Shown here one piece after another: positions 30,242-46,491 of a stretch of 64,000 bases of DNA. Below the pieces are notes generated by a model, which worked only from the letters and a program-made list of their open reading frames with translations, was not told where the DNA came from and did no database searches. A program made the position numbers and the translations under genes. Source of the stretch: Phycisphaerales bacterium (GTDB taxonomy: Bacteria; Planctomycetota; Phycisphaerae; Phycisphaerales; SM1A02); NCBI GenBank assembly GCA_029242715.1, contig JAQWTL010000038.1:1-64000 (forward strand), written 5' to 3'. The number at the start of each line of letters is the position of its first letter. Within the stretch, counting starts at the first letter, position 1.

Positions 30242-30292
30242 GGGTTTTTTCCAATCACAAGCCTACCACCGACACCAGCCTCAGGCTTGCCG

Positions 30293-30298
30293 TAGAAT
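30293..30298 (+). promoter_or_regulatory. -10-like element before paaJ
   Basis: TAGAAT ends 7 nt before the ATG at 30306. A CCGACA (30269-30274) lies 18 nt upstream as possible -35. No Shine-Dalgarno sequence. Confidence 0.42.
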
Positions 30299-30305
30299 CG
30301 GGTCT

Positions 30306-31517: not shown

Positions 31518-31536
31518 TCGAATTGGAAGGAACAAC

Positions 31537-32559
31537 ATGAGCGGTGCTGCAAATCCCGTCAAGCCTCTTGAACAGACTGGGCATGAAGACCCTGACAAGC
31601 TCGCCGAATTCGAGCAGCATATTGCCAACGGCGGACTGATCGAACCAGGCGACTGGATGCCTGATGCCTATCGCATGGGCATGCTCGGCATGGCAGAACA
31701 TCATGCCAACAGCGAGATCATCGGTGCCCTTCCAGAAGGTGAATGGATCACACGGGCCCCCAGCATGCGACGCAAGCTTGCCTTGACGGCCAAGGTTCAG
31801 GATGAAGTCGGGCACGGACAGATGCTTTACCGGGTTTCACAGGAACTTGGCAAGAGTCGTGATGACATGCTCCGTGATCTGGTCATGGGTAAAACCAAGT
31901 ACCACAACTGCTTCAATTATCCGGCCCCAACATGGGGCGATATTGCCATGATTCAGTGGCTCATCGATGGGGCCGCCATCATGAATCAGAAGACACTCGC
32001 AGATGGTGCCTATGGCCCCTATGTGAGAACAATGAACCGCATCAACATGGAAGAGGCCTTCCACTTCAAGAGCGGTGAAGACATGGTCCTCACACTCATG
32101 AGCGGAACGAAGTCGCAGAAAAACATGTGCCAGGATGCATTTGACCGCTGGTGGCCAGTGTCACTGATGTTCTTTGGCCCTGCAGACAAACCGGATGCCG
32201 AGAACAAGCCGGCGATGAAATGGCGAATGAAGGTCGAAAAAAACGACTCGCTCCGTCAGCGTTTCGTCGATCGCTTTGCACCTGCTGCCATGGATCTCGG
32301 ACTGATCATCAACATCGTGACCAAGAATGAACAAGGGCTCGTGACTTCAGCATCACCAGATGAAGAACTCGTCCTCAATGAAGAAACGGGCAACTGGTCA
32401 TTTACTGATCCTGACTGGGACGAGTTCTGGCGAGTCATTCGCGGCAATGGACCCTGCAATGCCCACCGCCTTTCACTCAGACGGTTCTCTTATGAACAAG
32501 GCGCCTGGGTAAGGCGTGCAATCGGATCTGGAACAACTTCACTCCCCCCTGCCGCCTAG
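31537..32559 (+). CDS. paaA: Phenylacetyl-CoA 1,2-epoxidase, catalytic subunit PaaA
   Basis: 340 residues from ATG 31537 with GGAAGGA upstream. Ferritin-like diiron monooxygenase subunit. The two E-x-x-H iron motifs are visible: E90-VG-H93 (QDEVGHGQ) and E173-AF-H176 (MEEAFHF). It inserts one oxygen atom into the aromatic ring of phenylacetyl-CoA. Length is close to E. coli PaaA (309) with a modest extension. First gene of the paaABCD run. Confidence 0.94.
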   Translation: MSGAANPVKPLEQTGHEDPDKLAEFEQHIANGGLIEPGDWMPDAYRMGMLGMAEHHANSEIIGALPEGEWITRAPSMRRKLALTAKVQDEVGHGQMLYRVSQELGKSRDDMLRDLVMGKTKYHNCFNYPAPTWGDIAMIQWLIDGAAIMNQKTLADGAYGPYVRTMNRINMEEAFHFKSGEDMVLTLMSGTKSQKNMCQDAFDRWWPVSLMFFGPADKPDAENKPAMKWRMKVEKNDSLRQRFVDRFAPAAMDLGLIINIVTKNEQGLVTSASPDEELVLNEETGNWSFTDPDWDEFWRVIRGNGPCNAHRLSLRRFSYEQGAWVRRAIGSGTTSLPPAA

Positions 32560-32565
32560 TGATCC

Positions 32566-33174
32566 ATGTCAAAGATCCGCGAACGTCAATTCGATCATGA
32601 GAGTGAGCTCACGGCACCTACGCCGGATACTGAGCACTGGATCATCTATACACAGAAGAAGCCCGAAGCCCCATTCAAATGGGCTGGTTCACTGAACGCT
32701 CCAGATCTTGAACTCGCAATGCAGTTCGCTGGAGAACACTATGGACTCGACGAGGCATGTGTCGCCTTCGTCGTGCATCACGCCGATCAAGCAACCGATG
32801 GTCCCTGTGGAATTGAACCTCTGGAACCTGGCAATGCAAATGGAACAGATGGACCATCCTGGTCCGTCTTTACGCTGCCTCGCCGAGGCGGCAACCTCCA
32901 ACAAGCCGGCACGATCAATGCCGCTGATGCCGAAACTGCACTCGCTCGGGCAACGACTACATTCGCTGATGGAAAATTCCATCAGGTTCGTGTCGTCCCC
33001 AGTGATCAGTTGTTCCTGTGCACTGGAGAGTCCACACTCATCTGGCGACTGCACGATATGGATTACAAGTTTGCCAAGGGGTACAGCAAGGGCGTACGGG
33101 CCAAATGGACTCGCATCCGCGATAAACAGAGTTACGAGGAATATCGCAAGGAGGACATCCACAAGCACTTCTGA
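32566..33174 (+). CDS. paaB: Double-length PaaB-like subunit of the phenylacetyl-CoA epoxidase
   Basis: 202 residues, 6 nt after paaA. PaaB is normally about 95 residues; here two PaaB-like units follow each other. Unit 1 (about 23-75) has WIIYTQKKPEAPFKWAGSLNAP... and unit 2 (about 98-150) WSVFTLPRRGG...AGTINAAD. Both have the aromatic start strand, the G-S/T-[IL]-N/H-A motif and the AL..A helix. A C-terminal basic/aromatic region (MDYKFAKGYSKG...) follows. PaaB bridges PaaAC heterodimers; a fused pair could fix that geometry. Confidence 0.85.
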   Translation: MSKIRERQFDHESELTAPTPDTEHWIIYTQKKPEAPFKWAGSLNAPDLELAMQFAGEHYGLDEACVAFVVHHADQATDGPCGIEPLEPGNANGTDGPSWSVFTLPRRGGNLQQAGTINAADAETALARATTTFADGKFHQVRVVPSDQLFLCTGESTLIWRLHDMDYKFAKGYSKGVRAKWTRIRDKQSYEEYRKEDIHKHF

Positions 33175-33195
33175 GTCAAGTGGCGGATTCCGATC

Positions 33196-33960
33196 ATGGA
33201 AGCAATGTTGACCAACCCACTGGCCGTTCTCATCCTGGCTCATGCCGATGACAAGCTTCTGCTTGGCCATGTGCAGAGCGATTGGACTGGGCTTGGGCCT
33301 CTACTGGAAGAAGACATTGCTGCTTCCGCAATGGCCCAGGATGACCTCAGTCACGCCTTGATTCTCTACCAGTTCCTGGGTGAACGTTATGAACTTGATT
33401 CAGATGTGATTGCCTTTGAACGAGAGCCCGTGGATTACATGTGCTGTGATCTTGTAACCAAGCCGGATGAGTTTGACTGGGCTGAGGCCGTGGTCAAACG
33501 TTGGCTGATCGCGGAATTCACTGGGATGGGAATTGACCGACTGTCCGCCATCGAGGACAAGGAACTGGCCGCTCGCTGTAATCGCATCAAGCCTGAACAG
33601 GCCTTGCAAATCAAGCATCTTCAGGCCTGGATCAAGAGGCTTGGTACAGCTGGCCCGGAATCGCAGGAACGTATCCAAGCGGCACTGGATCGACTCTCAG
33701 GTTTGGCCGGCATGTTGTTTGAAGTGCCTGGCCAACGACTTCCTGTCAATGATGATTTCTGCTGTGGTCGAGACGAGATGTTCAAGGCATGGGATGCAAG
33801 CATTCAAGAGACGCTCTCCCAATCCAATCTCAAGGCAAGCTTCGCCTTGCCAGAACGGAGCCTCATTGGCGGGCGCCGAGGAACACACGCATCTCATTTT
33901 CATGATCAGTTTGATGAGTTGACAGAGGTCCGGCGTGTATCGCCTGGAGCATCGTGGTAA
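33196..33960 (+). CDS. paaC: Phenylacetyl-CoA 1,2-epoxidase, structural subunit PaaC
   Basis: 254 residues. Helical ferritin-like fold with LLLGHVQSDWTGLGPLLEEDIA and QDDLSHALILYQFLGE, both typical of PaaC, which pairs with PaaA and has lost iron. Near the C-terminus it keeps the GRDEMFKAWD-like stretch of the family. Ends 7 nt inside paaD. Confidence 0.92.
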   Translation: MEAMLTNPLAVLILAHADDKLLLGHVQSDWTGLGPLLEEDIAASAMAQDDLSHALILYQFLGERYELDSDVIAFEREPVDYMCCDLVTKPDEFDWAEAVVKRWLIAEFTGMGIDRLSAIEDKELAARCNRIKPEQALQIKHLQAWIKRLGTAGPESQERIQAALDRLSGLAGMLFEVPGQRLPVNDDFCCGRDEMFKAWDASIQETLSQSNLKASFALPERSLIGGRRGTHASHFHDQFDELTEVRRVSPGASW

Positions 33961-34436
33961 GCAAACAGGACATTCTCAATGTCCTGGCGGGAATACCAGA
34001 TCCCGAGTTACCTGTCAGCATCGTTGACCTGGGCCTGGTGAACGATATCCAGATCGAGGGTGGTCACACTCGAATCGAACTGCTCCCGACATGGACAGGC
34101 TGCCCTGCTCTTGAAATGATCGAACGCGACGTCATTGATCAGGTAAGCCAGCTTGATGGAATTCAAGAATGCAAAGTGAACTGGTGCTTCGAACCCGCAT
34201 GGTCTCCAGATCGGATTTCCACGGAAGGCCAAATCCAGCTCAAGGCTCATGGTGTCACCACACCTGGTTGCCGTGATGGCCAATCAGTAGAACTGACAAC
34301 ATCCGTTATTCCATGCCCATACTGCAGTAGCCACAAAACCCGTATTGACAGCCCATTTGGCCCAACTCGATGCCGCTCGATTTACTTCTGTGATGACTGC
34401 AGAAACCAGTTTGAGCATATGAAGAAAGTCGATTGA
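33954..34436 (+). CDS. paaD: Phenylacetate oxygenase maturation protein PaaD
   Basis: 160 residues, GTG start overlapping the end of paaC. N-terminal MIP18/DUF59 domain (GIPDPELPVSIVDLGLV, TWTGCPALEMIE) and a C-terminal zinc-ribbon with four cysteines (CPYC ... CDDC), as in E. coli PaaD. It is thought to help assemble Fe-S cluster or metal centres of the epoxidase system. No paaE reductase follows. Confidence 0.92.
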   Translation: MVSKQDILNVLAGIPDPELPVSIVDLGLVNDIQIEGGHTRIELLPTWTGCPALEMIERDVIDQVSQLDGIQECKVNWCFEPAWSPDRISTEGQIQLKAHGVTTPGCRDGQSVELTTSVIPCPYCSSHKTRIDSPFGPTRCRSIYFCDDCRNQFEHMKKVD

Positions 34437-34576
34437 GGGCCTACTGCCCCAAGTGCCTCCCATTCATATGAGAACTGGCGGCCACAAGTAGTTATCGCCC
34501 CTACAAATCAGTTGATCAAGCAGTAGACTGTCTACCATCTGAATCTCATGAATACCCCTTGAGAAGGAAGCTTGAT

Positions 34577-35050
34577 GTGAGTGAATACTGGGTGGCACGA
34601 AGTGGCGAACGATATGGTCCTTACACAAAGGATCAACTTGTCGAGTACTACAACTCTGGTCAGGTTCTTCCAACGGATCAGGTCTGTCGTCCCGGAAGTG
34701 AGGAATGGGTTGTTGCTTCAACCATGTCTGAACTCTCAGGCGGCTCCGCGGGTTCAACACCTGCTCCACCTGCCGGAACTTCTGGAATCAACGTACCTGT
34801 AGTCAGCCTTGTCGGGCCGATCCTTGTCACCCTCTTCTGCTGTCTTCCTTTCGGCATTGTCTCGATCGTCTATGCGACACAGGTACCAACCAAGGTTGCC
34901 CAGAACGATCTTGCAGGCGCTCAATCTGCCGCAGTCAATGCGAAAAACTGGATGATGTGGGGCTTCATCATCGGTCTTGTAGCGAACCTGTTGGGCTTTG
35001 GCTTCTGGGCATTTGCTGCCTTTGCACAAATTGCCACACAGGGCCATTGA
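34577..35050 (+). CDS. GYF_2-CD225-type membrane protein
   Basis: 157 residues from GTG 34577, chosen because AGAAGGAAGC lies upstream. Residues 1-55 form a GYF_2/DUF4339 domain (YWVARSGERYGPYTKDQL ... W). A Ser/Pro/Ala linker follows, then two membrane segments with the CD225/dispanin-type motif CCLPFGIVSIVYA and an AK.W..WG stretch. Role unknown; the architecture is common in planctomycetes. The next membrane gene starts 4 nt later. Confidence 0.75.
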   Translation: MSEYWVARSGERYGPYTKDQLVEYYNSGQVLPTDQVCRPGSEEWVVASTMSELSGGSAGSTPAPPAGTSGINVPVVSLVGPILVTLFCCLPFGIVSIVYATQVPTKVAQNDLAGAQSAAVNAKNWMMWGFIIGLVANLLGFGFWAFAAFAQIATQGH

Positions 35051-35054
35051 AGGA

Positions 35055-35507
35055 GTGAGACTCACACGGGCTTCTACTCAACGTCGCCTGATCTCGCTCG
35101 CATCCGTACTGGCCATCGTGGCACTGTTCATCTTCCTTGGGCTGCGCCATCCAGACTCGGTTGCCTTTGCACCCATCTGCCCCCTGAACGCCACCACCGG
35201 TCTGTACTGCCCGGGGTGTGGCACAGGGAGAGCCATTCACCATGTTGCCAATGGCCGACTGGAGGCTGCCTGGCACCTCAACCCCATGTTGCTGATCATC
35301 GGACTGCCACTGCTGCTGGTGGCCCTGGGCTCTGAAATACGCCTCATGGCCACCGGCCAGGTGAGGCCAGCCGCAATCTGGTTCTCACGAATGGCCCTGA
35401 TTGCCGCCATCGTGCTTGTTGCCTGGGGAATCGTGCGAAACCTCCCCATTGACAGCCCAATCCCTCTGGTCCCCCAGGACCTGTCCGAGACGGCAACCAA
35501 GGCCTGA
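35055..35507 (+). CDS. DUF2752 membrane protein
   Basis: About 150 residues with three membrane segments. The DUF2752 signature is clear: CPLNATTGLYCPGCGTGRA, followed by LNP in the next helix. The start is uncertain. GTG 35055 is the last good candidate before the domain but overlaps the only AAGGAG; a TTG at 35013 or 34998 would overlap the preceding gene. DUF2752 and CD225-type proteins are often neighbours. Function unknown. Confidence 0.75.
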   Translation: MRLTRASTQRRLISLASVLAIVALFIFLGLRHPDSVAFAPICPLNATTGLYCPGCGTGRAIHHVANGRLEAAWHLNPMLLIIGLPLLLVALGSEIRLMATGQVRPAAIWFSRMALIAAIVLVAWGIVRNLPIDSPIPLVPQDLSETATKA

Positions 35508-35551
35508 ACAAGCGGGTCAGGCCCCGGTCAAAGCGATGCCCATGGCCCTGC

Positions 35552-35557
35552 TACAAT
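35552..35557 (+). promoter_or_regulatory. Extended -10 element before the E1alpha gene
   Basis: TGC-TACAAT, an extended -10, ends 9 nt before the ATG at 35567, with no Shine-Dalgarno sequence between them. It would give an RNA starting about 3 nt from the start codon. Confidence 0.45.
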
Positions 35558-35566
35558 CCCCTTCCT

Positions 35567-36727
35567 ATGAGTATGACTGCCGGACCGCGTGATCTCGCGG
35601 CTGATACCCAGTCTGGAACGACTAACTGCTCGCACGACTGCATGGATACGAAACCGATCGATCTCGGCGACATCGAGGTCCTGCAGGTCCTTGACGAGCA
35701 GGGCAATGTCAACCCCACACGAGACCCTGGTCTCAGCGACGAAGAGTTGCTCTCCGTCCACAGGGCAATGGTGCTGTCACGTGCCTTCGATGCTCGCATG
35801 CTGACAATGCAACGTCAGGGCGAAATGGGAACCTTCGCACCCAACCTCGGCCAGGAAGCATGCATGATCGGCCAAGTCTGGGATCTCACGAAGCAGGACT
35901 GGTTCAGCCCCAGCTATCGCTCCTTCGGGGCGCAGATTCAAAGAGGCTGGCCAATGGAACGACTGTTCCTGCTTTGGTCCGGATACCACGAGGGCTTCCC
36001 CCCGCCAGAAGGCATCAACGACATGCCTTTCTCAATCGTCATCGGATCACATGTCCTGCCCGCAGTTGGCATCGCGATGGGTATGCGAAGACGACACCAG
36101 CAGGATTGTGTCGTCGTGAATTTCGGAGACGGTGCCATGTCACAAGGCGCTGTGAGCGAAGCGCTGAACTTCGCCATGGTGGACAAGGCTCCTGTCATCT
36201 TCGTCTGTGAGAACAATGGCTGGGCCATCTCAACACCCACACAATTACAGTATGCAACCACTCACCTGGCAGGACGAGGAATTGGATTTGGCATGCCGTC
36301 CATCCGAGTGGATGGCAACGACATCCTGGGAATGATTGCTGCCATGCGGGAAGCCACTGCACGTGCCCGCAATGGCGAAGGCCCGACACTCATCGAGGCT
36401 GTCACCTATCGCCTGAGTTTGCATACGACCGCTGATGATCCCAAGGTCTACCGGGATGAAGCCGAAACGGAACCCTGGCAGCAACGGTGCCCGATCGCTC
36501 GCCTTGAACGACTGCTTGAGCAGCGGGATCTGCTCAAAAAGGAAGCCGCCGAAGCGATCAGAAGCGAATGCGATGCTCTGGTCCTGGAAGCCAGAGAACG
36601 CTTCCGGAACATTGCCAAGGCCCGCCCCCGTGAGGTCTTTGATCATCTCTATAGAACGACCCCCTCGGAAATCGAGGACCAACGTGCCGAGTATCTTCGT
36701 CGTCTTGATCGAAAGGGCGTGGACTGA
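35567..36727 (+). CDS. 2-oxo acid dehydrogenase E1 component, alpha subunit
   Basis: 386 residues. Thiamine-diphosphate motif GDG ... NN is intact (NFGDGAMSQG ... ENNGWAIS). The GSHVLPAVGIAMG and YRLSLHTTADDP segments match alpha subunits of pyruvate/branched-chain 2-oxo acid dehydrogenases. The first ~25 residues (Cys- and Asp-containing) are an extension; a start at ATG 35642 is possible. It is overlapped by one base with E1beta. Substrate cannot be fixed; branched-chain acids fit the HMG-CoA lyase elsewhere in the window. Confidence 0.9.
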   Translation: MSMTAGPRDLAADTQSGTTNCSHDCMDTKPIDLGDIEVLQVLDEQGNVNPTRDPGLSDEELLSVHRAMVLSRAFDARMLTMQRQGEMGTFAPNLGQEACMIGQVWDLTKQDWFSPSYRSFGAQIQRGWPMERLFLLWSGYHEGFPPPEGINDMPFSIVIGSHVLPAVGIAMGMRRRHQQDCVVVNFGDGAMSQGAVSEALNFAMVDKAPVIFVCENNGWAISTPTQLQYATTHLAGRGIGFGMPSIRVDGNDILGMIAAMREATARARNGEGPTLIEAVTYRLSLHTTADDPKVYRDEAETEPWQQRCPIARLERLLEQRDLLKKEAAEAIRSECDALVLEARERFRNIAKARPREVFDHLYRTTPSEIEDQRAEYLRRLDRKGVD

Positions 36728-37710
36728 TGCCCCAGAGAACAATGGTCGAAGCTTTGAACCTGGCACTTGATGAAGCCATGGCTGCTGATGACAGCGTGCT
36801 GGTCATGGGCCAGGATGTCGGCATCAACGGTGGTGTCTTCAGGGTTACCAAGGGCCTCCATGAACGTTATGGCCATGACCGTGTGATGGATACACCTCTG
36901 GCCGAATGTGGCATCATCGGAACTGCCGTCGGCATGTCCGTATATGGACTGAAACCTGTAGTCGAGATTCAATTCTCCGGTTTTACGATGCAGGCCTTTG
37001 ATCAGATTGAGCAGAACATGGCCAGGCTGCACAACCGGACCATGGGCCGTTTTCCGATGAGGATGGTGCTTCGAACACCGTTTGGCGGAGGCATCCGTGC
37101 GGTCGAACATCACAGTGAATCAAGGGAAACCTACTGGGCCCACACACCTGGACTCAAAGTGGTCATTCCATCCGGTCCACGCAATGCCAGGGCCTTGCTT
37201 GCTGCGGCCATTGAAGATCCTGATCCCGTAATCTTCTATGAACCAAAGGCTGTCTACCGCGCCTTTCGCGAGGATGTCCCCGATGAGCGGGAGATCATGA
37301 GCATCGGTGTCGCTGACATCGTTCGACCAGGCAATGATCTGACCCTGGTGAGCTACGGTGCCATGATGCGGCCAGCAAGAGAGGCCGTGGAAGATCTTGC
37401 AGACGAGCACAGCGTTGACGTTGAACTCATTGACCTGCTGAGCGTCTCTCCGATGGACACCAAAACCCTGTGTGACTCCGTCAGCAAGACTGGTCGCTGC
37501 GTCATCGTGCACGAAGGACATCGCACATGTGGTATTGCCTCTGAAATCATTGCCCGGATCAACGAGCATGCCTTCGAATACCTCGAGGCTCCAATACGCC
37601 GTCTGACCGGGTACGACATCCCATTCCCCTACTTCCAGACCGAGCAGCACTTCCTGCCTGATGCAGATGACATTGTTGAAGCGGTCCGTGAAACATTGGC
37701 ATGGGAGTAA
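36727..37710 (+). CDS. 2-oxo acid dehydrogenase E1 component, beta subunit
   Basis: 327 residues; ATG shares a base with the E1alpha stop (TGATG). Typical transketolase-like beta subunit: MGQDVG..GGVFRVT, DTPLAECGIIGTAVGM, and TPFGGGIRAVEHHSES, which contains the usual phosphorylation-loop histidines. The C-terminal half has VIVHEGHRTCGIASEI. Works as alpha2beta2 with the preceding gene to decarboxylate the 2-oxo acid and acylate the lipoyl arm of E2. Confidence 0.93.
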   Translation: MPQRTMVEALNLALDEAMAADDSVLVMGQDVGINGGVFRVTKGLHERYGHDRVMDTPLAECGIIGTAVGMSVYGLKPVVEIQFSGFTMQAFDQIEQNMARLHNRTMGRFPMRMVLRTPFGGGIRAVEHHSESRETYWAHTPGLKVVIPSGPRNARALLAAAIEDPDPVIFYEPKAVYRAFREDVPDEREIMSIGVADIVRPGNDLTLVSYGAMMRPAREAVEDLADEHSVDVELIDLLSVSPMDTKTLCDSVSKTGRCVIVHEGHRTCGIASEIIARINEHAFEYLEAPIRRLTGYDIPFPYFQTEQHFLPDADDIVEAVRETLAWE

Positions 37711-37712
37711 AC

Positions 37713-39035
37713 GTGGCAACGATGAGAGAATTTCGACTGCCTGATCTCGGTGAAGGTGTTCATGAGGGCCAGGTCATGCGCCTGATGGTTTCTGAAGGCG
37801 AGATGGTTCAAGAAGACCAGCACATCATGGAGGTCGAAACAGACAAGGCCGCCGTGGAGATCCCGTCTCCGGTTACAGGACGAGTCCACAAGGTTCATGT
37901 CGAAGAGCGCCAACTCGTACATGTTGGCGATGTCATGTTCACCTTCGAGTCACAAGGTGATGCCCACTCAACATCCTCGCCACAGCCCTCGGAAACGGCA
38001 GCAGCGGCTCCAGCCATGGCCGCACCGCCCCGCTCCCGAAGTGCGCCCAAGAGCGGTCGTAAACCTGCCTCACCATCCGTTCGTCGCATTGCACGCCAGA
38101 TGGGTATCGATCTCGCTGATGTCAACGGTTCTGGACCAGGCGGACGCGTCACACGACGTGATCTTGAACAGCACCAGTCAGCAGATACACCAACTGCCAC
38201 CGCTGAACCCGTTTCCACACCACCTGTTCACCCCGCAACAGCAGTTCCAGCAACGCCGATCAGCACGCCTCCACTACGAAGTGCGCCCGCCGCACCATTG
38301 GCACTCGATATCGAAGGTCGGGTTGACAGTGATCGATACGGTGAAATCATTCGGACGCCTTTGACCCAGGCACGCAAATCAATCGCTCAGGTCATGAGCA
38401 CGAGTTGGACCACGATCCCACACGTTACGGATTGCAATGATGCTGATATCACCGAACTGGAAACACTTCGCAAAGGCTTCCATGACCCCTCCGCTGATGA
38501 ACGACGAATCACAACCCTTGCATTCGTCATACGAGCCATCTGTCGCGGCCTCGCTGCATTCCCGATCCTGAATGCATCACTAGATGAAGGCTCCGGCGAC
38601 ATCATCTTCCATCGTTATGTCAACATCGGAATTGGTGTTGATACGCCACGTGGCCTTGTTGCCCCGGTGATACACAATGCCGACACCATGGGCGTCGGTG
38701 AACTGGCGGACCATCTCCAGGTCATCACCGATAACGCCCGAAATGCGAGCTTCGCGATCGAAGACACCAGAGGCGGAACGTATACCATCTCGAATGCAGG
38801 AGCCATGGGACGAACCCGTTACTCGACCCCGATCATCACGCCCGGCCAGGTTGCATGCCTGGCCGTTGGCCGTGCCCGAAAGATGCCCTGGGTCGTAGAC
38901 GATGAAATCGTCCCAAGACTTATCCTCCCATTGAGTCACTCGATGGATCATAGACTTGTTGATGGCGGCCGTGAAGTGCCCTTCATAGGCCATGTCATCG
39001 ATGATCTTGAAAATCCAATGCGATTCATGCTCTAG
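37713..39035 (+). CDS. Dihydrolipoamide acyltransferase (E2)
   Basis: 440 residues from GTG 37713 (GGAG 5 nt upstream); ATG 37701 and 37722 are alternatives. One lipoyl domain with K45 in the VETDKAAVE motif, a Pro/Ala-rich linker, a peripheral-subunit-binding domain about 119-153 (PSVRRIARQMGID ... GPGGRVTRRD), and a catalytic domain ending in SMDHRLVDGG with H413. The binding domain should recruit E1 and an E3; the E3-like protein found downstream lacks catalytic residues. Confidence 0.93.
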   Translation: MATMREFRLPDLGEGVHEGQVMRLMVSEGEMVQEDQHIMEVETDKAAVEIPSPVTGRVHKVHVEERQLVHVGDVMFTFESQGDAHSTSSPQPSETAAAAPAMAAPPRSRSAPKSGRKPASPSVRRIARQMGIDLADVNGSGPGGRVTRRDLEQHQSADTPTATAEPVSTPPVHPATAVPATPISTPPLRSAPAAPLALDIEGRVDSDRYGEIIRTPLTQARKSIAQVMSTSWTTIPHVTDCNDADITELETLRKGFHDPSADERRITTLAFVIRAICRGLAAFPILNASLDEGSGDIIFHRYVNIGIGVDTPRGLVAPVIHNADTMGVGELADHLQVITDNARNASFAIEDTRGGTYTISNAGAMGRTRYSTPIITPGQVACLAVGRARKMPWVVDDEIVPRLILPLSHSMDHRLVDGGREVPFIGHVIDDLENPMRFML

Positions 39036-39094
39036 CCGAGTATGGTCGCTGATTCGAATAATTCAAATCCCGTTACATGTTCCAGGAGAACACC

Positions 39095-40207
39095 ATGTTC
39101 AAACAAATGACCCCGTTGCTGGCAGGCCTAGCCCTGTTCTCAAGCCTGGCCGTCGCACAGGAATCGATCACAGAAACAATCACCGTCGAGACCGAGGAAG
39201 CCACTCCGGTCAAGACGCTCACCATCGGCGACAAGGCACCTACGATCAAGGACATCACCTGGCTCAAGGGCAAAGGCGTTGAGGCCTTCAAACCAGGCGA
39301 TTCCTATGTTGTCGAGTGCTGGGCAACCTGGTGCGGACCCTGCATCAAGGGCATTCCGCATCTCACCAAACTCCAGAAGCAATACAAGGGCAAGATCAAG
39401 ATCATGGGTATTGCCATCTGGCAAGAAGGCGATGACAGACTTGCCAAAGTCACCGATTTCGTGAAGGAACAAGGTGACAAGATGGATTACACGGTCGGCA
39501 TTGAGAAAGACAACTCAATTGCCAACAACTGGATGAAGCCCGCTGGACAGAATGGCATTCCCTGCGCATACCTGGTCGACAAAGATGGCCGAATCGCCTG
39601 GATCGGACACCCCGGAAGCATCGACCCTGTACTTGAGTCCTACACCGCTGGATCATGGGATGTGGCCACGTTTGCAGTCGAGTATCGCAAGCAGCAGGAA
39701 AATGAAAAGTTCATGGAGCAAATGTCCCGCAAAGTCCAGGAAGCCATGGCCAAGAATGAACCAGGCAAGGCCATTGAGATTCTGGATGAGGTCATTGCCA
39801 AGAACCCGGACATGAGCTCGGTCAAGTACTCGAAATTCATGATCATGCTCTCGACAGATGAATATGCCCGACAGGCCTACACGTTTGGCGAAGAACTGCT
39901 CATGGACAACTGGGACAACGCCCAGATGCTCAACTCGCTCAGTTGGAGCGTCCTGACCGATCCTCCTGTGAAGTATCGCGATCTGGACTTTGCCATCAAG
40001 GCTGCTGAACGTGCGAACAACCTCACTGATGGTGAGGATGCCTCCATTCTGGATACGCTCGCTCGAGCCTGGTTCGACAAGGGTGACTTCAAGCGAGCCA
40101 TCGAACTCCAGGAAAAGGCCATTGCCACTGCTCCCGATGGCCAGATGAAGGATGAACTCAAGCAGACGCTGGAGAAGTATGTAACGGCCCAACCCAAGGT
40201 CGGCTGA
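39095..40207 (+). CDS. Exported thioredoxin-fold protein with C-terminal TPR
   Basis: 370 residues from ATG 39095 (AGGAG upstream). Signal peptide about 1-21 ending AVA-Q. TlpA/ResA-like thioredoxin domain about 42-200 with the redox motif C80-G-P-C83 (CWATWCGPCIKGIP). The C-terminal half (about 210-365) is helical with TPR-like units (AKNEPGKAIEILDEVIAKNP; DAS.LDTLARAWFDKGDFKRAIELQEKA). Likely acts outside the cytoplasm as a thiol reductase. A strong hairpin follows at 40239-40269. Confidence 0.85.
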   Translation: MFKQMTPLLAGLALFSSLAVAQESITETITVETEEATPVKTLTIGDKAPTIKDITWLKGKGVEAFKPGDSYVVECWATWCGPCIKGIPHLTKLQKQYKGKIKIMGIAIWQEGDDRLAKVTDFVKEQGDKMDYTVGIEKDNSIANNWMKPAGQNGIPCAYLVDKDGRIAWIGHPGSIDPVLESYTAGSWDVATFAVEYRKQQENEKFMEQMSRKVQEAMAKNEPGKAIEILDEVIAKNPDMSSVKYSKFMIMLSTDEYARQAYTFGEELLMDNWDNAQMLNSLSWSVLTDPPVKYRDLDFAIKAAERANNLTDGEDASILDTLARAWFDKGDFKRAIELQEKAIATAPDGQMKDELKQTLEKYVTAQPKVG

Positions 40208-40238
40208 TACCCAGCACCAATATTCTCCTGTTCATGAC

Positions 40239-40269
40239 CGGCGGGGACGTCCCAGTGGCGTCCCCGCCG
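40239..40269 (+). terminator. GC-rich hairpin after the thioredoxin-TPR gene
   Basis: A perfect 11-bp stem (40239-40249 with 40259-40269) with a 9-nt loop lies 32 nt after the stop at 40207. There is no U-tract, so it may be a weak or factor-assisted terminator. It lies directly upstream of the E3-like gene. Confidence 0.55.
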
Positions 40270-40322
40270 TTATGCGCCCGCTTGCTGGAGTACAGTGCAC
40301 ATTCCTTATTGGAGCAACGAAA

Positions 40323-41465
40323 TTGGTTGTCGGCGAATTCACACAAGACACAGAGATTCTCGTCATCGGCGGTGGTCCAACTGGACGAGAAGCTGCCAGG
40401 CGTTGTGCAGAGTTGGGAAAGCAGACGCTGCTGGCTGATCCAGATCCACTCCCTGCCACTACAGGCGTGGAGAATGTCCAAGGTTCTGTTCGCTTCGCAG
40501 ACAAGCGTTCGGTCCAAGTGACAGGAGAACACGTTTCGAGGATTCGTTTCAAGCGTGCAATCGTCTGCACTGGTTGCCACATGGGCCCGAACGTACTCCG
40601 TGGACTGGAAGCAAGCGGTTCCTGGCGAGAACCCGCACAAGGACGTGTCCTGGTTGCCGGCTCTGGAACTCTTGCCGTAACCGTCGCCATGCAGAATGCA
40701 ACATCAGGTGCCGATGTCGTACTGGCCTGTCCTGGTACGCAACTGCTGCCATCCGTTGATCCAATCATCTCTGCGGTCATCGTTGAACATCTGGTTTCCA
40801 ACCAGGTAGATCTACTACCGAACATTCAATTCGCCGGTATCACACAGGACAACGATTCCGCCCTGGTTGTTCTGGATGAAGGAACTGTGCTGGGTGAGTT
40901 CGACAAGATCATTGCGGCTCATCCCATTGGGGGACATTTCGAGAATCTGGATTTGCAGAACACCGCCGTCGAAATCGAAAGCGGATGGATCAAGATCGCC
41001 GAGACCGGCACCACTGCCGAAAACCGGATCCTGGCTGCAGGTGGCTGCACTGGACTTGTCTTTGAGCCAGCCGCTGCCGCACATCATGGCCGGCTTGTAG
41101 CGGAATCAGCCTGCGGACTGGATGCCACCTGGGATCCCGCCGCCATACCAGCGTTCCTTGAAGCACCGCTGCCAATGAGTTGGTGCGGCCTCAACGAGGC
41201 CATGGCCACGGAAGAAGGGCATGACCCCACTTCCATCGGCCTCGGAAAAGGACAGACCATTGTCCGCATGGTTCATGATCGCCAGTCAGGCCTCCTTCTG
41301 GGCGCAGGCGCTACTGGTTCTTCTGCAAGGATTGTTGGCGAAGCTGCGACCATGGCCCTGGAGATGGGCGCGACCATCGAAGACCTTGCCGCACTGTCAC
41401 CCGTTGCTCAAGATCGCCCTGGACTCGCGGATGTCGCACGAACTGCCTGGAAGCCAACATCATGA
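40323..41465 (+). CDS. Dihydrolipoamide-dehydrogenase-like protein without redox-active residues
   Basis: 380 residues from TTG 40323 (GGAG 8 nt upstream); ATG 40272 is an in-frame alternative. Fold of a pyridine nucleotide-disulfide oxidoreductase: FAD loop GGGPTG at 16-21, second Rossmann VLVAGSGTLAV, and a C-terminal dimer domain. The region that should hold C-x4-C is missing, with the protein about 80-100 residues short there. The FAD-contacting Asp of the G-D motif is Gly (AAGGCTG). The C-terminal H-P...E reads RPGLAD. So it cannot do classical E3 chemistry. It occupies the E3 slot after E1/E2. Confidence 0.82.
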   Translation: MVVGEFTQDTEILVIGGGPTGREAARRCAELGKQTLLADPDPLPATTGVENVQGSVRFADKRSVQVTGEHVSRIRFKRAIVCTGCHMGPNVLRGLEASGSWREPAQGRVLVAGSGTLAVTVAMQNATSGADVVLACPGTQLLPSVDPIISAVIVEHLVSNQVDLLPNIQFAGITQDNDSALVVLDEGTVLGEFDKIIAAHPIGGHFENLDLQNTAVEIESGWIKIAETGTTAENRILAAGGCTGLVFEPAAAAHHGRLVAESACGLDATWDPAAIPAFLEAPLPMSWCGLNEAMATEEGHDPTSIGLGKGQTIVRMVHDRQSGLLLGAGATGSSARIVGEAATMALEMGATIEDLAALSPVAQDRPGLADVARTAWKPTS

Positions 41466-41950
41466 AGCTTGCCTTGGTCCTTTTCTTGATTCTGAGCTTC
41501 ATGGCTGCTTTCGTCCTCGGTCTGGTCTGGACCCTCAAATCACCGGGGAACTCGGTTGCAGTCACTGTATTGATCATCATCTGCATTGCAGAATGTCCTG
41601 CCATCATGCTGGGAGTCTTTCATGGTCTCTGGCGGCCGGTTGCCAAGCAGTTTCCTGAACGGGAACACGGCCCTGACGCCGTGACACGAAATTTCCAATC
41701 CTTTGGACTGGGCATAATCAACATGGGCTTGAGTATTCATGCCACCGTCGATGATTCATACCTGCACATTCGACCTGTTACCTGGTTGCGCGTCATGGGC
41801 GCCTCTCCCATGAGCATCCCATGGGAATCAATGACACCAACTGGAAAACGCGGCCGGGCTGTCCGCCTGGATAACGGCACCAGGCTTGACGGACCCAAGT
41901 GGTGTTTCAAGATGTTGAATGCCGCTGATTCGAACGATTCAAAACCCTGA
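41462..41950 (+). CDS. Uncharacterised protein with two N-terminal membrane segments
   Basis: 162 residues; ATG overlaps the stop of the E3-like gene (ATGA). Two hydrophobic segments (about 3-25 and 36-56) are followed by a soluble domain of ~100 residues that includes SMGLSIHATVDDSYLHIRP-like strands and a WESMTP motif, giving the look of a PH-like or photosystem-assembly type beta domain. No family named. Translational coupling suggests a functional link to the E3-like protein. Confidence 0.7.
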   Translation: MKLALVLFLILSFMAAFVLGLVWTLKSPGNSVAVTVLIIICIAECPAIMLGVFHGLWRPVAKQFPEREHGPDAVTRNFQSFGLGIINMGLSIHATVDDSYLHIRPVTWLRVMGASPMSIPWESMTPTGKRGRAVRLDNGTRLDGPKWCFKMLNAADSNDSKP

Positions 41951-41965
41951 GCCAACCTGCCGGCC

Positions 41966-42565
41966 TCAGCGGCCAGTGGCCTTCTTGGTTTCATACATGA
42001 CATCTGGAACCCGTGAACGATCCGGTTCCACCTCGGCAAGCGGCTCGACCTCATGCCCGGTGGCAGCATGTCGCCCGGCAAGATGTTGATAGACCTCGGT
42101 CCCGCGGCTCTTCCAACCTATTTCCTTCTCCGAAAGTTCTCGGATCAACTTGGCCGGCGAACCTGCAAAGAGCGTTCCGGGAGGGATCTCAGTGCCTTCC
42201 TTCACGAAGGACAATGCGCCGATGATCGAGTTCTCCCCCACCTGGACATCATCCATGAGGACCGAATTGATCCCGATCAAGGCATTGCGCCCGACCCGGC
42301 AACCATGCAGGACCGCCCCATGTCCAACATGTCCATTCTCTTCGATGACGACGTCCTTTCCAGGAAAGCAATGAACGACGCAGGTGTCCTGAACATTGCT
42401 TCCAGCCTTCATTTCAAGGCGGCCAATATCTCCACGCAGTACAGCATTTGGCCCAACTAGACATCCTTCACCGATGATCACGTCACCAATGAGAACCGCT
42501 GTGGGATGCACGAATGCTTCAGGATGAACAACCGGCCGAAGGCCTTCGTACTCGTAACAGGGCAT
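41966..42565 (-). CDS. paaY: PaaY-type gamma-carbonic-anhydrase-fold thioesterase
   Basis: 199 residues. Left-handed beta-helix of hexapeptide repeats (VHPTAVLIGDVIIGEG, GPNAVLRGDIGR, QDTCVVHCFPG, HVGHGAVLHGC). The metal histidines of the gamma-CA fold are visible in VHC and GHVGHGAVLH. The C-terminal ELSEKEIGWKSRGTEVYQ matches E. coli PaaY closely. PaaY removes CoA from 2-hydroxycyclohepta-1,4,6-triene-1-formyl-CoA, a toxic side product of phenylacetate breakdown. Its ATG overlaps the paaN stop by one base. Confidence 0.9.
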   Translation of the reverse strand: MPCYEYEGLRPVVHPEAFVHPTAVLIGDVIIGEGCLVGPNAVLRGDIGRLEMKAGSNVQDTCVVHCFPGKDVVIEENGHVGHGAVLHGCRVGRNALIGINSVLMDDVQVGENSIIGALSFVKEGTEIPPGTLFAGSPAKLIRELSEKEIGWKSRGTEVYQHLAGRHAATGHEVEPLAEVEPDRSRVPDVMYETKKATGR

Positions 42566-44259
42566 CAGCTCACCGCTTCCTCAACCGCTGCAGGTACCGG
42601 CACTCGGCAGGCCACTGTCCTGAATCGGTTGGCTACAAACGCCGCATCACACAGCGTGGCATTCCCGGCGGGGTTGGCACCGGAGACATGGAAATCGCTG
42701 AAGGCCGCAGACTGGTTGACCCAGATGTGACCCGTAAGATTGCATGAAATCGCCACACCGGCATCCGTCATCGATTCGATTCCGCGCTCGAGAACCTCTT
42801 CATCACGACTGTACATCGCACAGGTCAGCGCCCCACATTCACGGGCACCTGTTGAGGCAAGCTCGATCGACTCCTCCGTACTGGCTGTCTTCACGATGTA
42901 CACGATCGGTCCGAACATCTCCTGCTGGAAGGTCGATGTATCGGATGCATCTACCTGAATGACCGTTGGCGTCGCTGTCCGGGCATCCTTGAAACGTTCG
43001 TTCTCAATGGAAGCAGATTCACGCAGAACAGTCCCAGTTCCAGATGATGCCTGAGCCACACGAGCAGCCGTGGCTTCTGATTGGATCGCTCCACAGACCT
43101 CTGCCGCCCGAGCAGGATCCGAGAGGAACCAGTTCATCGCCTTTACGATAGCTGCAGCAGTGTCATCAAAGGACACCCTGCCGTCAGGTGTTTCGATTCC
43201 ATCTTCTGGGATGTAGATGTTCTGTGGCGTTGTGCACATCTGGCCCGAATACAGGCTCAGGGAGAATGCCAGGTTTCCGGTCATGGCCTTCAGGTCCTCA
43301 CATCCATCGATGATGACCGTGTTGATCCCGGCCTTTTCGGTATAGACCTGAGCATGTCGAATATTGGTTTCAATCCAATCACCGAATTCATTTCCACCGG
43401 TGTAGTCAATGATGCCGACCTCCGGCCTCTTGACGAGATCCTGTGTGCAAGGTGAGTCGGGCGTATCACATGCCAGAGTGAGAACATTTGGATCAAATCC
43501 GGCTTCGACAAGTACCTCCCTGGCAATCTCTATGGTGATGGCCAGGGGAAGAACGGCACCTGGATGTGGCTTGGTCACAACCGCATTACCCGTTGCCAGA
43601 CTTGCAAACAGACCTGGATATCCATTCCACGTGGGGAAAGTAGAGCAACCGATGTTGACGGCCACACCACGTGGAATGATTCGGAAAGTCTTGTCAAGAG
43701 TGACTGTGTCAGTCTTGGAGACCCGCTTGCTCCATGTCGCATGTTCTGGACATCGAGTCATCTCTCGCCATGCACACGCGACTGCTTCCAATCCACGATC
43801 CTGCGCATGTGGACCTCCCGCCTGGAAAGCCATCATGAAACCCTGGCCCGTCGTGTGCATGACCGAAAAGCCGATTTCAAATGATCGCTTGTTCAAGCGA
43901 TGGAGAATTTCAAGACAGACGCCCACACGGGTCTCCGCACTCGCACGCTTCCATGATGCCATGGCAGCGACTGCTGCAGGCATCAGAACATCCAGATCCG
44001 CCTTCGGATACAGCGTTCCCGTGTCGATGCCATAGGGTGATTGCTCAGCACCTATCCATTCCACGGTGCCAGGTTGATCAATCTCGAATTTATTTCCAAG
44101 TCGTCCCTTCCAACCAGCCAGACCGTCATCCTTGGCCGTCTCGCCATAAATCTTTCCGCTGGGAACCTCGGGGTAGGCCGACCAGGAACCTCTGCTGTCA
44201 ATTGCTTCCAATGCAGCATTGAGGGTCTCCTGATGACGTTGGAACATTTCGTGTGACAC
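42565..44259 (-). CDS. paaN: Phenylacetic acid degradation protein PaaN (aldehyde dehydrogenase family)
   Basis: 564 residues from GTG 44259, chosen because AAGGA lies 8 nt upstream and it fits the family length (~550). An upstream ATG at 44373 would add 38 poorly fitting residues. ALDH superfamily: GNAVVTKPHPGAVLPLA cofactor region, FTG-like DYTGGNEFGDW, and C342 in YSGQMCTTPQNIY. It lacks the C-terminal MaoC hydratase domain of PaaZ. A separate oxepin-CoA hydrolase would therefore be needed. Operon with paaY; divergent from the permease gene. Confidence 0.88.
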   Translation of the reverse strand: MSHEMFQRHQETLNAALEAIDSRGSWSAYPEVPSGKIYGETAKDDGLAGWKGRLGNKFEIDQPGTVEWIGAEQSPYGIDTGTLYPKADLDVLMPAAVAAMASWKRASAETRVGVCLEILHRLNKRSFEIGFSVMHTTGQGFMMAFQAGGPHAQDRGLEAVACAWREMTRCPEHATWSKRVSKTDTVTLDKTFRIIPRGVAVNIGCSTFPTWNGYPGLFASLATGNAVVTKPHPGAVLPLAITIEIAREVLVEAGFDPNVLTLACDTPDSPCTQDLVKRPEVGIIDYTGGNEFGDWIETNIRHAQVYTEKAGINTVIIDGCEDLKAMTGNLAFSLSLYSGQMCTTPQNIYIPEDGIETPDGRVSFDDTAAAIVKAMNWFLSDPARAAEVCGAIQSEATAARVAQASSGTGTVLRESASIENERFKDARTATPTVIQVDASDTSTFQQEMFGPIVYIVKTASTEESIELASTGARECGALTCAMYSRDEEVLERGIESMTDAGVAISCNLTGHIWVNQSAAFSDFHVSGANPAGNATLCDAAFVANRFRTVACRVPVPAAVEEAVS

Positions 44260-44349
44260 CGGTTTGCGTCCTTTTCCTGGGTCAGTAATGCAGTGATTTG
44301 CACCACAGTAATCAATGGCATTGTAGCGCAGCTTCGTGGAGAGCTGGGC

Positions 44350-44355
44350 TACAAT
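44350..44355 (+). promoter_or_regulatory. -10-like element upstream of the permease gene
   Basis: TACAAT in the context GGCTACAATGG, 45 nt before the ATG at 44401. No clear -35 at normal spacing. Confidence 0.35.
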
Positions 44356-44400
44356 GGAAATCACCGCCAACAAGCGAAGGCGAAGTGACTGATTAGAGCC

Positions 44401-46491
44401 ATGCCCGCCCCTTCTACTGGCACATTTCGCAAGGATATTTCCCTTCTGGGAGTTTTCGCGCTCTCTCTGGGAACCACGATCAGCAGTGGTTTTTTCCTGC
44501 TACCTGGATTGGCCTTTGCTCAAGTTGGCCCAGCCATTCTGTTGTCCTACCTCCTGGCAGGCCTGGTCGTTCTCCCCCCCCTCTTGTGCAAAGCTGAACT
44601 GGCAACTGCCATGCCAAAGGCTGGTGGTGCTTACTTCTACCTGGATCGCGCATTTGGACCAATGGCCGGAGCAGTGGCAGGCCTGGGCACCTGGGTTTCA
44701 TTAACGCTCAAGACTTCCTTTGCCTTGGTTGGCTCAGGTTTTTACATCGGCCTCTTCATGGATGACCCCCCCGTCCTCCTGATTGCCATATGCCTGGCGA
44801 TCTTCTTTGGCCTGCTGAACGTGTTCGGTGCCGGAAAAACCAGCAAGATCCAAGCTGCGATGGTCCTGCTTGTCCTGGGACTCTTGTCCTGGTTCATCAT
44901 CCAGGGTGGTACGGAAATCAACACAAGTCATTTTGAAGATTTCTTTGGAGCAGGCGGCTACACCGTGGTCTCCATGACTGGCGTCGTGCTGGTTTCATAC
45001 ATGGGATTGACCAAGGTTTGCAGTGTTGCCGAAGAGGTCAAGAACCCTGAACGCAATCTTCCTCTGGGCATCATCCTGGGGCTCATCTGTGCGCTGATCA
45101 TCTACATCGCGGGTATTGCCATAATGATCGGCGTCGTACCCGCAGAAGAACTCTCTACAACCTATACACCCGCGGCGGCAGCCGCAGGCATAATTGCCGG
45201 CCGTCCAGGCATGATCTTGATTTCAATTGCAGCCATTGCTTCCTTCCTTTCAGTCGCCAATGCTGGCATTCTCAGCGCATCTCGCTACCCAATGGCAATG
45301 AGTCGGGACCATATGGTTCCCAGCATCCTCCGCAAGTTGAGTCGATTTGGCACCCCGGTACCCGCAATCATCCTGACCGTCAGCCTGATCGTTGTACAGC
45401 TTCTTCTGCTCGATCCCCTGATCATCGCCAAGTATGCCGGCACCACCAAACTCATGCTATTCGGCCTGCTCTGTGCCGCCATGATCGTCATGCGGGAGAG
45501 CAGACTCGATTCCTATGATCCTGGTTTCAAAGCCCCGTTCTATCCGTGGCTGCCACTGATCGGCATGGCTGGCTGCATTCTGGCGATCGTGTTCCTTGGA
45601 TGGATTCCAATCCTGTTCACCATCGGGCTCATCACCTTGGCCATGATCTGGTTCAAACTGTATGCATCCAGTCGTGTACGCCGCGAAGGCGCCATCTATC
45701 AGCTCTTTTCACGGCTGGGAAGACGCCCATATGACCCGCTTGATATAGAGCTCAGAGGCATCATCAAGGAAAAAGGCCTCAGGCCAACTGATCCCTTTGA
45801 TGAAATCATTGCAAGAGCTCATGTTCTTCAGGCAAATCCAAACGAGGATTTTGAATCCGTCTCACGAAGAGCTGCCGAAGATCTTGCCGATGAAACAGGG
45901 CTCTCTGCCAACACCTTCTTCAAACAGTTCATGGAAGGAACCCGGGTTGGCGCAACACCTGTCATGGGTGGAGTCGCATTACCTCACATGCGAATTGATG
46001 GCCTTCAACGGCCACACCTCGTATTGGTTCGATCAAAGAACGGACTTGATATTGAAGTCGGTTATGGAACCGGCGAACAGACTCACCGGGAACGCGTCTA
46101 TGCCATGTTCTTCATGGCGAGTCCTGAATCAGATCCAACCCAGCACCTGAGACTTCTTGCCAGTCTCGCCAGTGCGGTCGAACAGGATGGCTTCATGAGT
46201 CGGTGGCAACAAGCAACATCAGATGCGGAACTGAAAGGTGCTCTGCTCAGAAATGATCGCAGCCTCACCCTTGCCTTGGAGAACAATAGTTCTTGCAGTG
46301 TCTGGATTTCAAAGCCAATCTCAGCCATCGATCTACCTGAAGGCGTACTGATCGCACTCGTTCAGTCAGATGGCGAACGTCATGTCCCGACCGGCAAGAC
46401 CATTCTCTGCAAAGGCGACCACCTAATCGTCATCGGTGAACCGGAAGGTATCGCAGCCCTGAGAGAGCAACTGGACCTTGATCCGATCTGA
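44401..46491 (+). CDS. APC-family permease fused to PTS EIIA-like and RCK_C domains
   Basis: 696 residues. Residues ~10-420 are a 12-helix amino acid/polyamine permease (ISLLGVFALSLGTTISSGFF, PKAGGAYFYLDRAFG). Residues ~470-620 form a PTS EIIA type-2 (PtsN/fructose-like) domain with the phosphorylatable position H529 in GGVALPHMRID. Residues ~628-696 look like an RCK/TrkA C-terminal ligand-binding domain (LIALVQSDGERHVPTGKT, GDHLIVIGEPE). Transport is probably gated by EIIA phosphorylation and by a small ligand. Substrate unknown. It diverges from paaN-paaY. Confidence 0.88.
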   Translation: MPAPSTGTFRKDISLLGVFALSLGTTISSGFFLLPGLAFAQVGPAILLSYLLAGLVVLPPLLCKAELATAMPKAGGAYFYLDRAFGPMAGAVAGLGTWVSLTLKTSFALVGSGFYIGLFMDDPPVLLIAICLAIFFGLLNVFGAGKTSKIQAAMVLLVLGLLSWFIIQGGTEINTSHFEDFFGAGGYTVVSMTGVVLVSYMGLTKVCSVAEEVKNPERNLPLGIILGLICALIIYIAGIAIMIGVVPAEELSTTYTPAAAAAGIIAGRPGMILISIAAIASFLSVANAGILSASRYPMAMSRDHMVPSILRKLSRFGTPVPAIILTVSLIVVQLLLLDPLIIAKYAGTTKLMLFGLLCAAMIVMRESRLDSYDPGFKAPFYPWLPLIGMAGCILAIVFLGWIPILFTIGLITLAMIWFKLYASSRVRREGAIYQLFSRLGRRPYDPLDIELRGIIKEKGLRPTDPFDEIIARAHVLQANPNEDFESVSRRAAEDLADETGLSANTFFKQFMEGTRVGATPVMGGVALPHMRIDGLQRPHLVLVRSKNGLDIEVGYGTGEQTHRERVYAMFFMASPESDPTQHLRLLASLASAVEQDGFMSRWQQATSDAELKGALLRNDRSLTLALENNSSCSVWISKPISAIDLPEGVLIALVQSDGERHVPTGKTILCKGDHLIVIGEPEGIAALREQLDLDPI

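Follow-up and report, generated by a model that had tools for sequence, protein, structure and literature searches.

A dihydrolipoamide dehydrogenase homolog lacking the catalytic residues of E3 in a paa-linked 2-oxoacid dehydrogenase operon of Phycisphaerales

The window, as we call the whole 64,000-nucleotide stretch of DNA analyzed here (contig JAQWTL010000038.1 of assembly GCA_029242715.1), comes from one of a group of marine planctomycete bacteria within the Phycisphaerales and contains a phenylacetate catabolic (paa) locus (positions 30240 to 44373) that encloses an operon for a 2-oxoacid dehydrogenase complex. Upstream of the operon, on the forward strand, lie genes for a PcaF/PaaJ-like thiolase (30240 to 31517; 562.5 bits to TIGR02430, below the cut-off of 597, and 476.3 bits to TIGR01930, above the cut-off of 240.55), the 1,2-phenylacetyl-CoA epoxidase subunit PaaA (31486 to 32559; TIGR02156, 382.7 bits versus a cut-off of 280), PaaC (33196 to 33960; TIGR02158, 133.6 versus 133.35), and PaaD (33954 to 34436; TIGR02159, 149.9 versus 108.15), with an unnamed open reading frame (ORF) between PaaA and PaaC. 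Downstream, on the reverse strand, are a PaaY-like hexapeptide protein (41966 to 42565; TIGR02287, 285.8 bits, below the cut-off of 319.6) and PaaN (42565 to 44373; TIGR02288, 804.1 versus 578.75), followed on the forward strand by an APC-type amino acid transporter (44401 to 46491; TIGR00909, 192.7 bits, below the cut-off of 556.8).

The enclosed operon runs on the forward strand in the order E1 alpha, E1 beta, E2, a thioredoxin-TPR gene, and E3, set between PaaD and PaaY/PaaN. It opens with the 2-oxoacid dehydrogenase subunits E1 alpha (35567 to 36727; E1_dh, 248 bits; 411.1 bits to TIGR03181, cut-off 411.35) and E1 beta (36727 to 37710; Transket_pyr and Transketolase_C), and continues with an E2 acyltransferase (37701 to 39035; 2-oxoacid_dh and Biotin_lipoyl) that has one lipoyl domain and an intact E3-binding domain at about residues 122 to 156 (E3_binding, 60.7 bits). 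The next gene (39077 to 40207) encodes a thioredoxin/ResA-like protein with TPRs, assigned from Redoxin and TPR matches and from synteny, with an N-terminal hydrophobic leader recognized by eye. It is followed by the subject of this study (40323 to 41465), a gene for a 380-residue protein that we annotate as an E3-derived pseudoenzyme. The first-pass annotation had placed this gene after E1 alpha, E1 beta, and E2; it does occupy the E3 slot, but the thioredoxin-TPR gene intervenes after E2. Its stop codon overlaps the start codon of the following gene (ATGA, 41462 to 41465), which agrees with the coupling to an unknown membrane protein proposed earlier: the downstream product (41462 to 41950, forward strand; 162 residues) has two long predicted helices and a beta-rich domain (model pLDDT of 89) and no match in Pfam or NCBIfam. 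The beta-rich domain may be PH-like, as it gives weak PH-domain matches (best E value of 0.015). Homologs of the membrane protein are also found at other sites in other genomes.

The E3-like reading frame starts with TTG at 40323 to 40325, which is also the beginning of the conserved MVVGEF tail; GGAG lies 8 bases upstream, and the frame stops at 41465. All six members of the genus retain the tail and use TTG or GTG at this position; the start is ATG in 25 other E3s with an MVVG tail, extracted from whole-genome matches, in a count that omits G013b and G023, where the start is ambiguous, and the loci from a collection scan for the MVVGEF pattern. The protein matches the Pfam families Pyr_redox_2 (71 bits), Pyr_redox, and Pyr_redox_dim and falls below the cut-offs of the Lpd model TIGR01350 (95.2 bits versus 408.8) and the MerA model (102.5 bits versus 454). 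Its AlphaFold2 model (48 rows) is confident (mean pLDDT of 92.4; pTM of 0.86) and, in Foldseek and VIA-align comparisons, falls on solved E3s, with a Z score of 36.5 and an rmsd of 2.4 over 368 residues for 2yqu and a VIA-align Z score of 34.8 for 1ebd. The protein is accordingly predicted to retain the E3 fold except for the redox segment, with both Rossmann domains and the dimerization domain in the model. The Pfam matches, the motifs, and the model agree with the earlier statement that the first FAD loop, the second Rossmann domain, and the dimer domain remain. The predicted fold in itself is silent on FAD binding and on E2 binding.

In alignment with intact orthologs, 64 residues that should follow the first beta-alpha-beta unit, ahead of the motif GVE, are absent (counted against L157, which is 90 residues longer overall), and the C-x4-C region falls within this deletion. 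A scan of the whole protein found no C-x4-C anywhere; its cysteines are at positions 28, 82, 85, 136, 242, 264, and 288. The Asp of the G-D motif is replaced by Gly241, the C-terminal His-Glu dyad is gone, and two further residues are lost, namely, the Lys that follows C-x4-C and a Glu in the second Rossmann motif. In E3 this Lys and Glu form an ion pair near the flavin, and the stretch that is deleted here includes a segment lining the flavin. The first-pass annotation had called the loss of the disulfide region, the FAD-contacting Asp, and the His-Glu dyad, and the alignment bears out all three. Retained are the first dinucleotide loop, an ATG-like motif (here CTG), the second Rossmann motif, and the dimerization domain; within the genus, neither Asp39 nor either of the two GxGxxG/A motifs varies. 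We considered a CxxC at positions 82 to 85 as a replacement disulfide, or as a pair like that of low-molecular-weight thioredoxin reductase, and rejected it because it occurs in four of the six genus members, position 85 being Ala or Ser in the other two.

These losses are shared by the six genomes of the genus that we examined. All six genomes lack C-x4-C with its following Lys, all six lack the His-Glu dyad, and all six have Gly or Ala for the G-D Asp, so that both Cys residues, Lys, Asp, His, and Glu are gone throughout; the Glu that partners the Lys is gone in five. Because the six genomes agree on the same set of losses, a sequencing or assembly deletion in a normal lpd is excluded, its probability being negligible.

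To place the protein among its relatives, we aligned the motifs of 75 E3s of the operon type outside Bacillota, 74 of them as full rows, many of which are closely related so that counts are not independent. All five residues (Cys, Cys, Asp, His, Glu) are retained in 60 of the 74 full rows. The window protein and its five congeners make up six rows with none of the five residues and no redox segment, and erosion is partial in eight: the first Cys is Trp in G013b, G025, and G026 and Ala in G034, where His is also Tyr; the second Cys is Trp in G028; and the G-D Asp is altered in G040, G023, and L143. The Lys and Glu paired near the flavin are present in all 60 intact rows and in all 16 housekeeping Lpd rows. 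The E3s with Trp for the first redox Cys (L117 of G013, L102 of G025, and L058 of G026) have retained the G-D Asp as well as His and Glu at the two aligned positions; judged by sequence, they appear to be E3s disabled in a different way.

A tree of 72 rows, from which the redox and C-terminal columns were removed, joins the six genus members in a single clade (support 100/100) that is nested among E3s of the same operon type and lies apart from the housekeeping Lpd clade. Its nearest neighbors are shortened E3s (411 to 440 residues) that have C-x4-C, and its long stem (1.28) indicates that constraints have changed. The E3-like protein is the positional ortholog of an E3 that is intact in related genera, with partial erosion in some of them; motif alignment, synteny, and predicted fold concur with the earlier description of a protein that holds the place of E3 and has its fold but not its catalytic residues. 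Since the partly eroded rows fall at several positions in the tree, some on long or weakly supported branches, erosion of these residues has probably occurred more than once in related genera. In the stretches examined, the E3s of G013b and G014x stand apart from E1 and E2, and G024 (L101; 99% complete) yielded no close match to an operon-type E3, though its operon-type E1 and E2 are present.

The two genes that flank the E3-like gene have a history of their own. The membrane gene adjoins it in all six genus members, and 13 of the 14 E3s of 440 residues or less sit in operons with both the thioredoxin-TPR and the membrane genes; the exception is G023, and G003 is counted among the 13, its contig beginning just before E3 and its thioredoxin-TPR gene lying on another piece of the genome. 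Seven of the shortened E3s with both flanking genes are outside the genus, of which L143 and the G040 protein are without the Asp and five (bin61s, cluster2, UBA3160, ZT_38, and ZT_35) keep all five catalytic residues. We therefore reject the idea that the flanking genes arrived with the loss of chemistry; they preceded it. In the locus comparison, neither gene was found beside an E3 of 450 residues or more; G028 has a weak thioredoxin-like match on the opposite strand.

The E3-like gene is under purifying selection as a protein and is less constrained than E1 and Lpd. Its frame is open in all six species of the genus, the congener proteins are 56 to 67% identical to that of the window, and 133 of 382 alignment columns are invariant. 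Across five pairs, dN/dS ranges from 0.10 to 0.19, with dS mostly near saturation, values that indicate constraint at the protein level. In the least saturated pair (G001 and G005; dS of 0.97), dN/dS is 0.106 for the E3-like gene, 0.104 for E2, 0.034 for E1 alpha, and 0.040 for Lpd.

The canonical E3 activity is presumably supplied from elsewhere in the window's genome (96.7% complete), where one Lpd scores above cut-off (C7, 516 bits) and has an intact active site; no E1 or E2 is among the ORFs listed near it. A search for such a separate canonical lpd had been proposed in the first-pass annotation. The E1 model PF00676 finds four strong places in the genome and a weak fifth (41.5 bits). Besides the window operon, these comprise 2-oxoglutarate dehydrogenase on C46 (E1, 1120 versus 764; SucB, 508 versus 449), pyruvate dehydrogenase (PDH) on C46 (E1 alpha, 401.6 versus 393.85 for TIGR03182), and on C41 an E1/E2 set beside a leucine-dehydrogenase-like ORF, read by eye as a branched-chain complex, whose E1 alpha also passes a PDH model (TIGR03181, 447 versus 411.35). 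No E3 is among the ORFs listed around these three sets. Since the genome has one Lpd and no E3 beside its other E1/E2 genes, this Lpd presumably serves all four complexes. We also asked about erosion tracking the presence of a second Lpd, and discarded the idea: another Lpd above cut-off occurs in 13 of 13 genomes with an eroded E3 and in 15 of 19 with an intact one (counted by eye; the entry for G015, in the latter group, comes from a split gene), a nonsignificant association (13/0 versus 15/4; P = 0.13).

The complex itself may be an arylpyruvate dehydrogenase feeding phenylacetyl-CoA degradation, a predicted substrate that rests on the locus and on gene co-occurrence. Among 81 genomes, the E1 beta type of the window (at least 551 bits, the next group scoring at most 434) occurs in 32 and PaaN (E value of 1e-100 or better) in 32; 31 have both, 48 have neither, and two are discordant, namely, G008 (88% complete, with E2 and E3 close to the end of a contig) and G019 (72% complete). 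The association is strong when relatedness is ignored (Fisher P = 4e-20), and the PaaN search matched none of 14 control genomes. The only ligase searched, the phenylacetate-CoA ligase PaaK, had no match at an E value of 1e-60 or better in 31 of the 32 PaaN genomes; such matches occur in two of the 81 genomes, the one with PaaN being G071 (251 bits versus a cut-off of 646), and in 6 of 14 control genomes. A complex converting phenylpyruvate to phenylacetyl-CoA would explain both the co-occurrence with PaaN and the scarcity of PaaK matches. The window operon, whose phenylacetate context the first-pass annotation had not noted, is probably not the housekeeping PDH: its E1 beta type is missing from 49 of the 81 relatives, as a sole PDH would not be. 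The window E1 alpha falls just a quarter of a bit short of TIGR03181, a PDH model, so pyruvate may yet be the substrate. A literature search that left most subscription papers outside its coverage gave no match for a phenylpyruvate dehydrogenase complex; widened, it led to the PDH-like PglB/PglC complex of Streptomyces pristinaespiralis, for which a passage of PMC7089894 gives the proposed reaction phenylpyruvate to phenylacetyl-CoA. The likeness is one of proposed reaction, and that complex belongs to an antibiotic precursor pathway, whereas the window complex would be catabolic.

Given that the catalytic residues are lost and that selection nonetheless keeps the gene, the stripped E3 is probably a structural or regulatory part, one of the two roles suggested in the first-pass annotation, with the other Lpd copy doing the chemistry. 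More precisely, we favor, at a little short of an even chance, a former E3 turned noncatalytic subunit of the paa-linked complex. Such a protein would fold as an E3-like dimer and, as its most likely role, dock on the peripheral subunit-binding domain of E2, where it would determine how the complex is built, its stoichiometry, or how active it is; an adenine nucleotide is a conceivable ligand because the GxGxxG loop and Asp39 are retained. The single unlinked Lpd would re-oxidize the reduced lipoyl groups in trans, and the locus and the co-occurrence pattern suggest that the complex would turn phenylpyruvate or another arylpyruvate into phenylacetyl-CoA for the Paa pathway. The good E3-binding domain of E2 (60.7 bits) speaks for a subunit role, and its basic residues are present in all six genus members. 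Against it, the dimerization domain is no more conserved within the genus than the other parts (identity of 0.59, versus 0.64 for the first FAD part and 0.55 for the NAD domain), and conservation is low (0.36) over the last 23 residues. The long stem of the clade and the nonsignificant link between erosion and a second Lpd also weigh against this reading. Acidic positions that we equate with D344 and E431, presumably the docking residues of Bacillus E3, do not discriminate and were set aside as docking evidence, being acidic in every clade row compared, intact E3s included; a literature search on these two Bacillus residues returned no match. The full picture, in which a dedicated noncatalytic E3 on the E2 binding domain tunes an arylpyruvate complex, for example, as a nucleotide sensor, and one shared Lpd serves four complexes in trans, is more conjectural, and we hold it as a plausible minority view. 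The binding domain of E2 reads RVTRRD in all six genus members, and the second Arg is absent from 17 of the 18 related E2s compared.

The protein could instead have left the complex to work elsewhere, for instance by binding nucleotides or acting as a scaffold together with the membrane protein, and its operon position would then be historical. The ATGA overlap in the window, the adjacency of the membrane gene in all six genus members, the operons shared by 13 of the 14 short E3s, and the long stem of the clade, which suggests a new role, would all fit; however, the membrane gene also stands beside five shortened E3s whose five catalytic residues are intact, so its arrival was not tied to the loss of chemistry, and the E3 position and the MVVGEF tail are both retained. 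We regard such a departure as unlikely, if a serious contender. Decay toward loss, tolerated since the unlinked Lpd suffices, is very improbable: the eroded residues in several lineages, the E1 and E2 of G024 without an operon-type E3 found, and the non-ATG start codons in all six genus members point that way, but the low dN/dS (about 0.1 to 0.2), the frames open in six of six species, the 133 invariant columns, and the confident predicted fold do not suit a relic.

The first-pass annotation had also offered a new oxidoreductase, that is, a flavin- or NAD(P)H-dependent enzyme with novel chemistry. This appears quite unlikely from the sequence because all six genomes have lost the G-D Asp along with the flavin-proximal Lys and the 64 deleted residues include what in E3 is the flavin-lining segment; the CxxC at 82 to 85, moreover, is present in only four. 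In its favor, the genus shows no variation in Asp39 or in the two GxGxxG/A motifs, and FAD can be retained in E3 relatives that have no disulfide, according to passages of PMC6296175, which describe yeast Irc15p as having no redox Cys pair, binding FAD, and being reduced by NADH and Mycobacterium tuberculosis LpdA as missing one Cys and the His-Glu dyad and reducing quinones. The window protein resembles both in being an E3 relative without the redox disulfide, and LpdA in also being without His-Glu; it differs from them in the loss of the flavin segment and the G-D Asp and in being encoded inside an E1-E2 operon; those passages mention neither a missing flavin segment nor a place in an E1-E2 operon for Irc15p or LpdA. 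Irc15p was the sole relevant case of an inactive or pseudo E3 in our literature search, which found no paper on these enzymes in Planctomycetes or Phycisphaerae and had most subscription papers outside its coverage.

Compared with dihydrolipoamide dehydrogenase itself (E3/Lpd, TIGR01350), the protein shares ancestry, operon position, the dinucleotide loops, the dimerization domain, and the predicted fold over nearly the entire chain; it is distinguished by the absence of C-x4-C, Lys, the G-D Asp, and His-Glu and by its shorter length. Among the enzymes of central metabolism E3 is highly conserved, and a lineage in which selection preserves its fold and its site in the operon after the catalytic residues have gone would show that a noncatalytic role is open to E3 in a 2-oxoacid dehydrogenase complex. 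The eukaryotic E3-binding protein (E3BP, or protein X) is derived from E2, whereas the window protein is derived from E3 and is bacterial. If the more conjectural picture above is true, a dedicated noncatalytic E3 subunit would be the bacterial, E3-derived counterpart of E3BP, each being a noncatalytic part of a 2-oxoacid dehydrogenase complex (for E3BP, the eukaryotic PDH complex, as stated in a passage of PMC9974300). The graded series in related genera, from intact E3s through point losses and shortened forms to the stripped protein, makes the order of loss testable.

For the host group, marine Phycisphaerales, the locus suggests a phenylacetyl-CoA pathway entered via an arylpyruvate dehydrogenase, not via PaaK. 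No PaaE reductase that could act as electron donor to the PaaABC epoxidase scores above cut-off in the window's genome, the best match (31.5 bits) covering part of the profile. Also near the paa genes, at 27236 to 30241, is a large Ser/Thr protein kinase-like gene whose C-terminal part is TPR-like.
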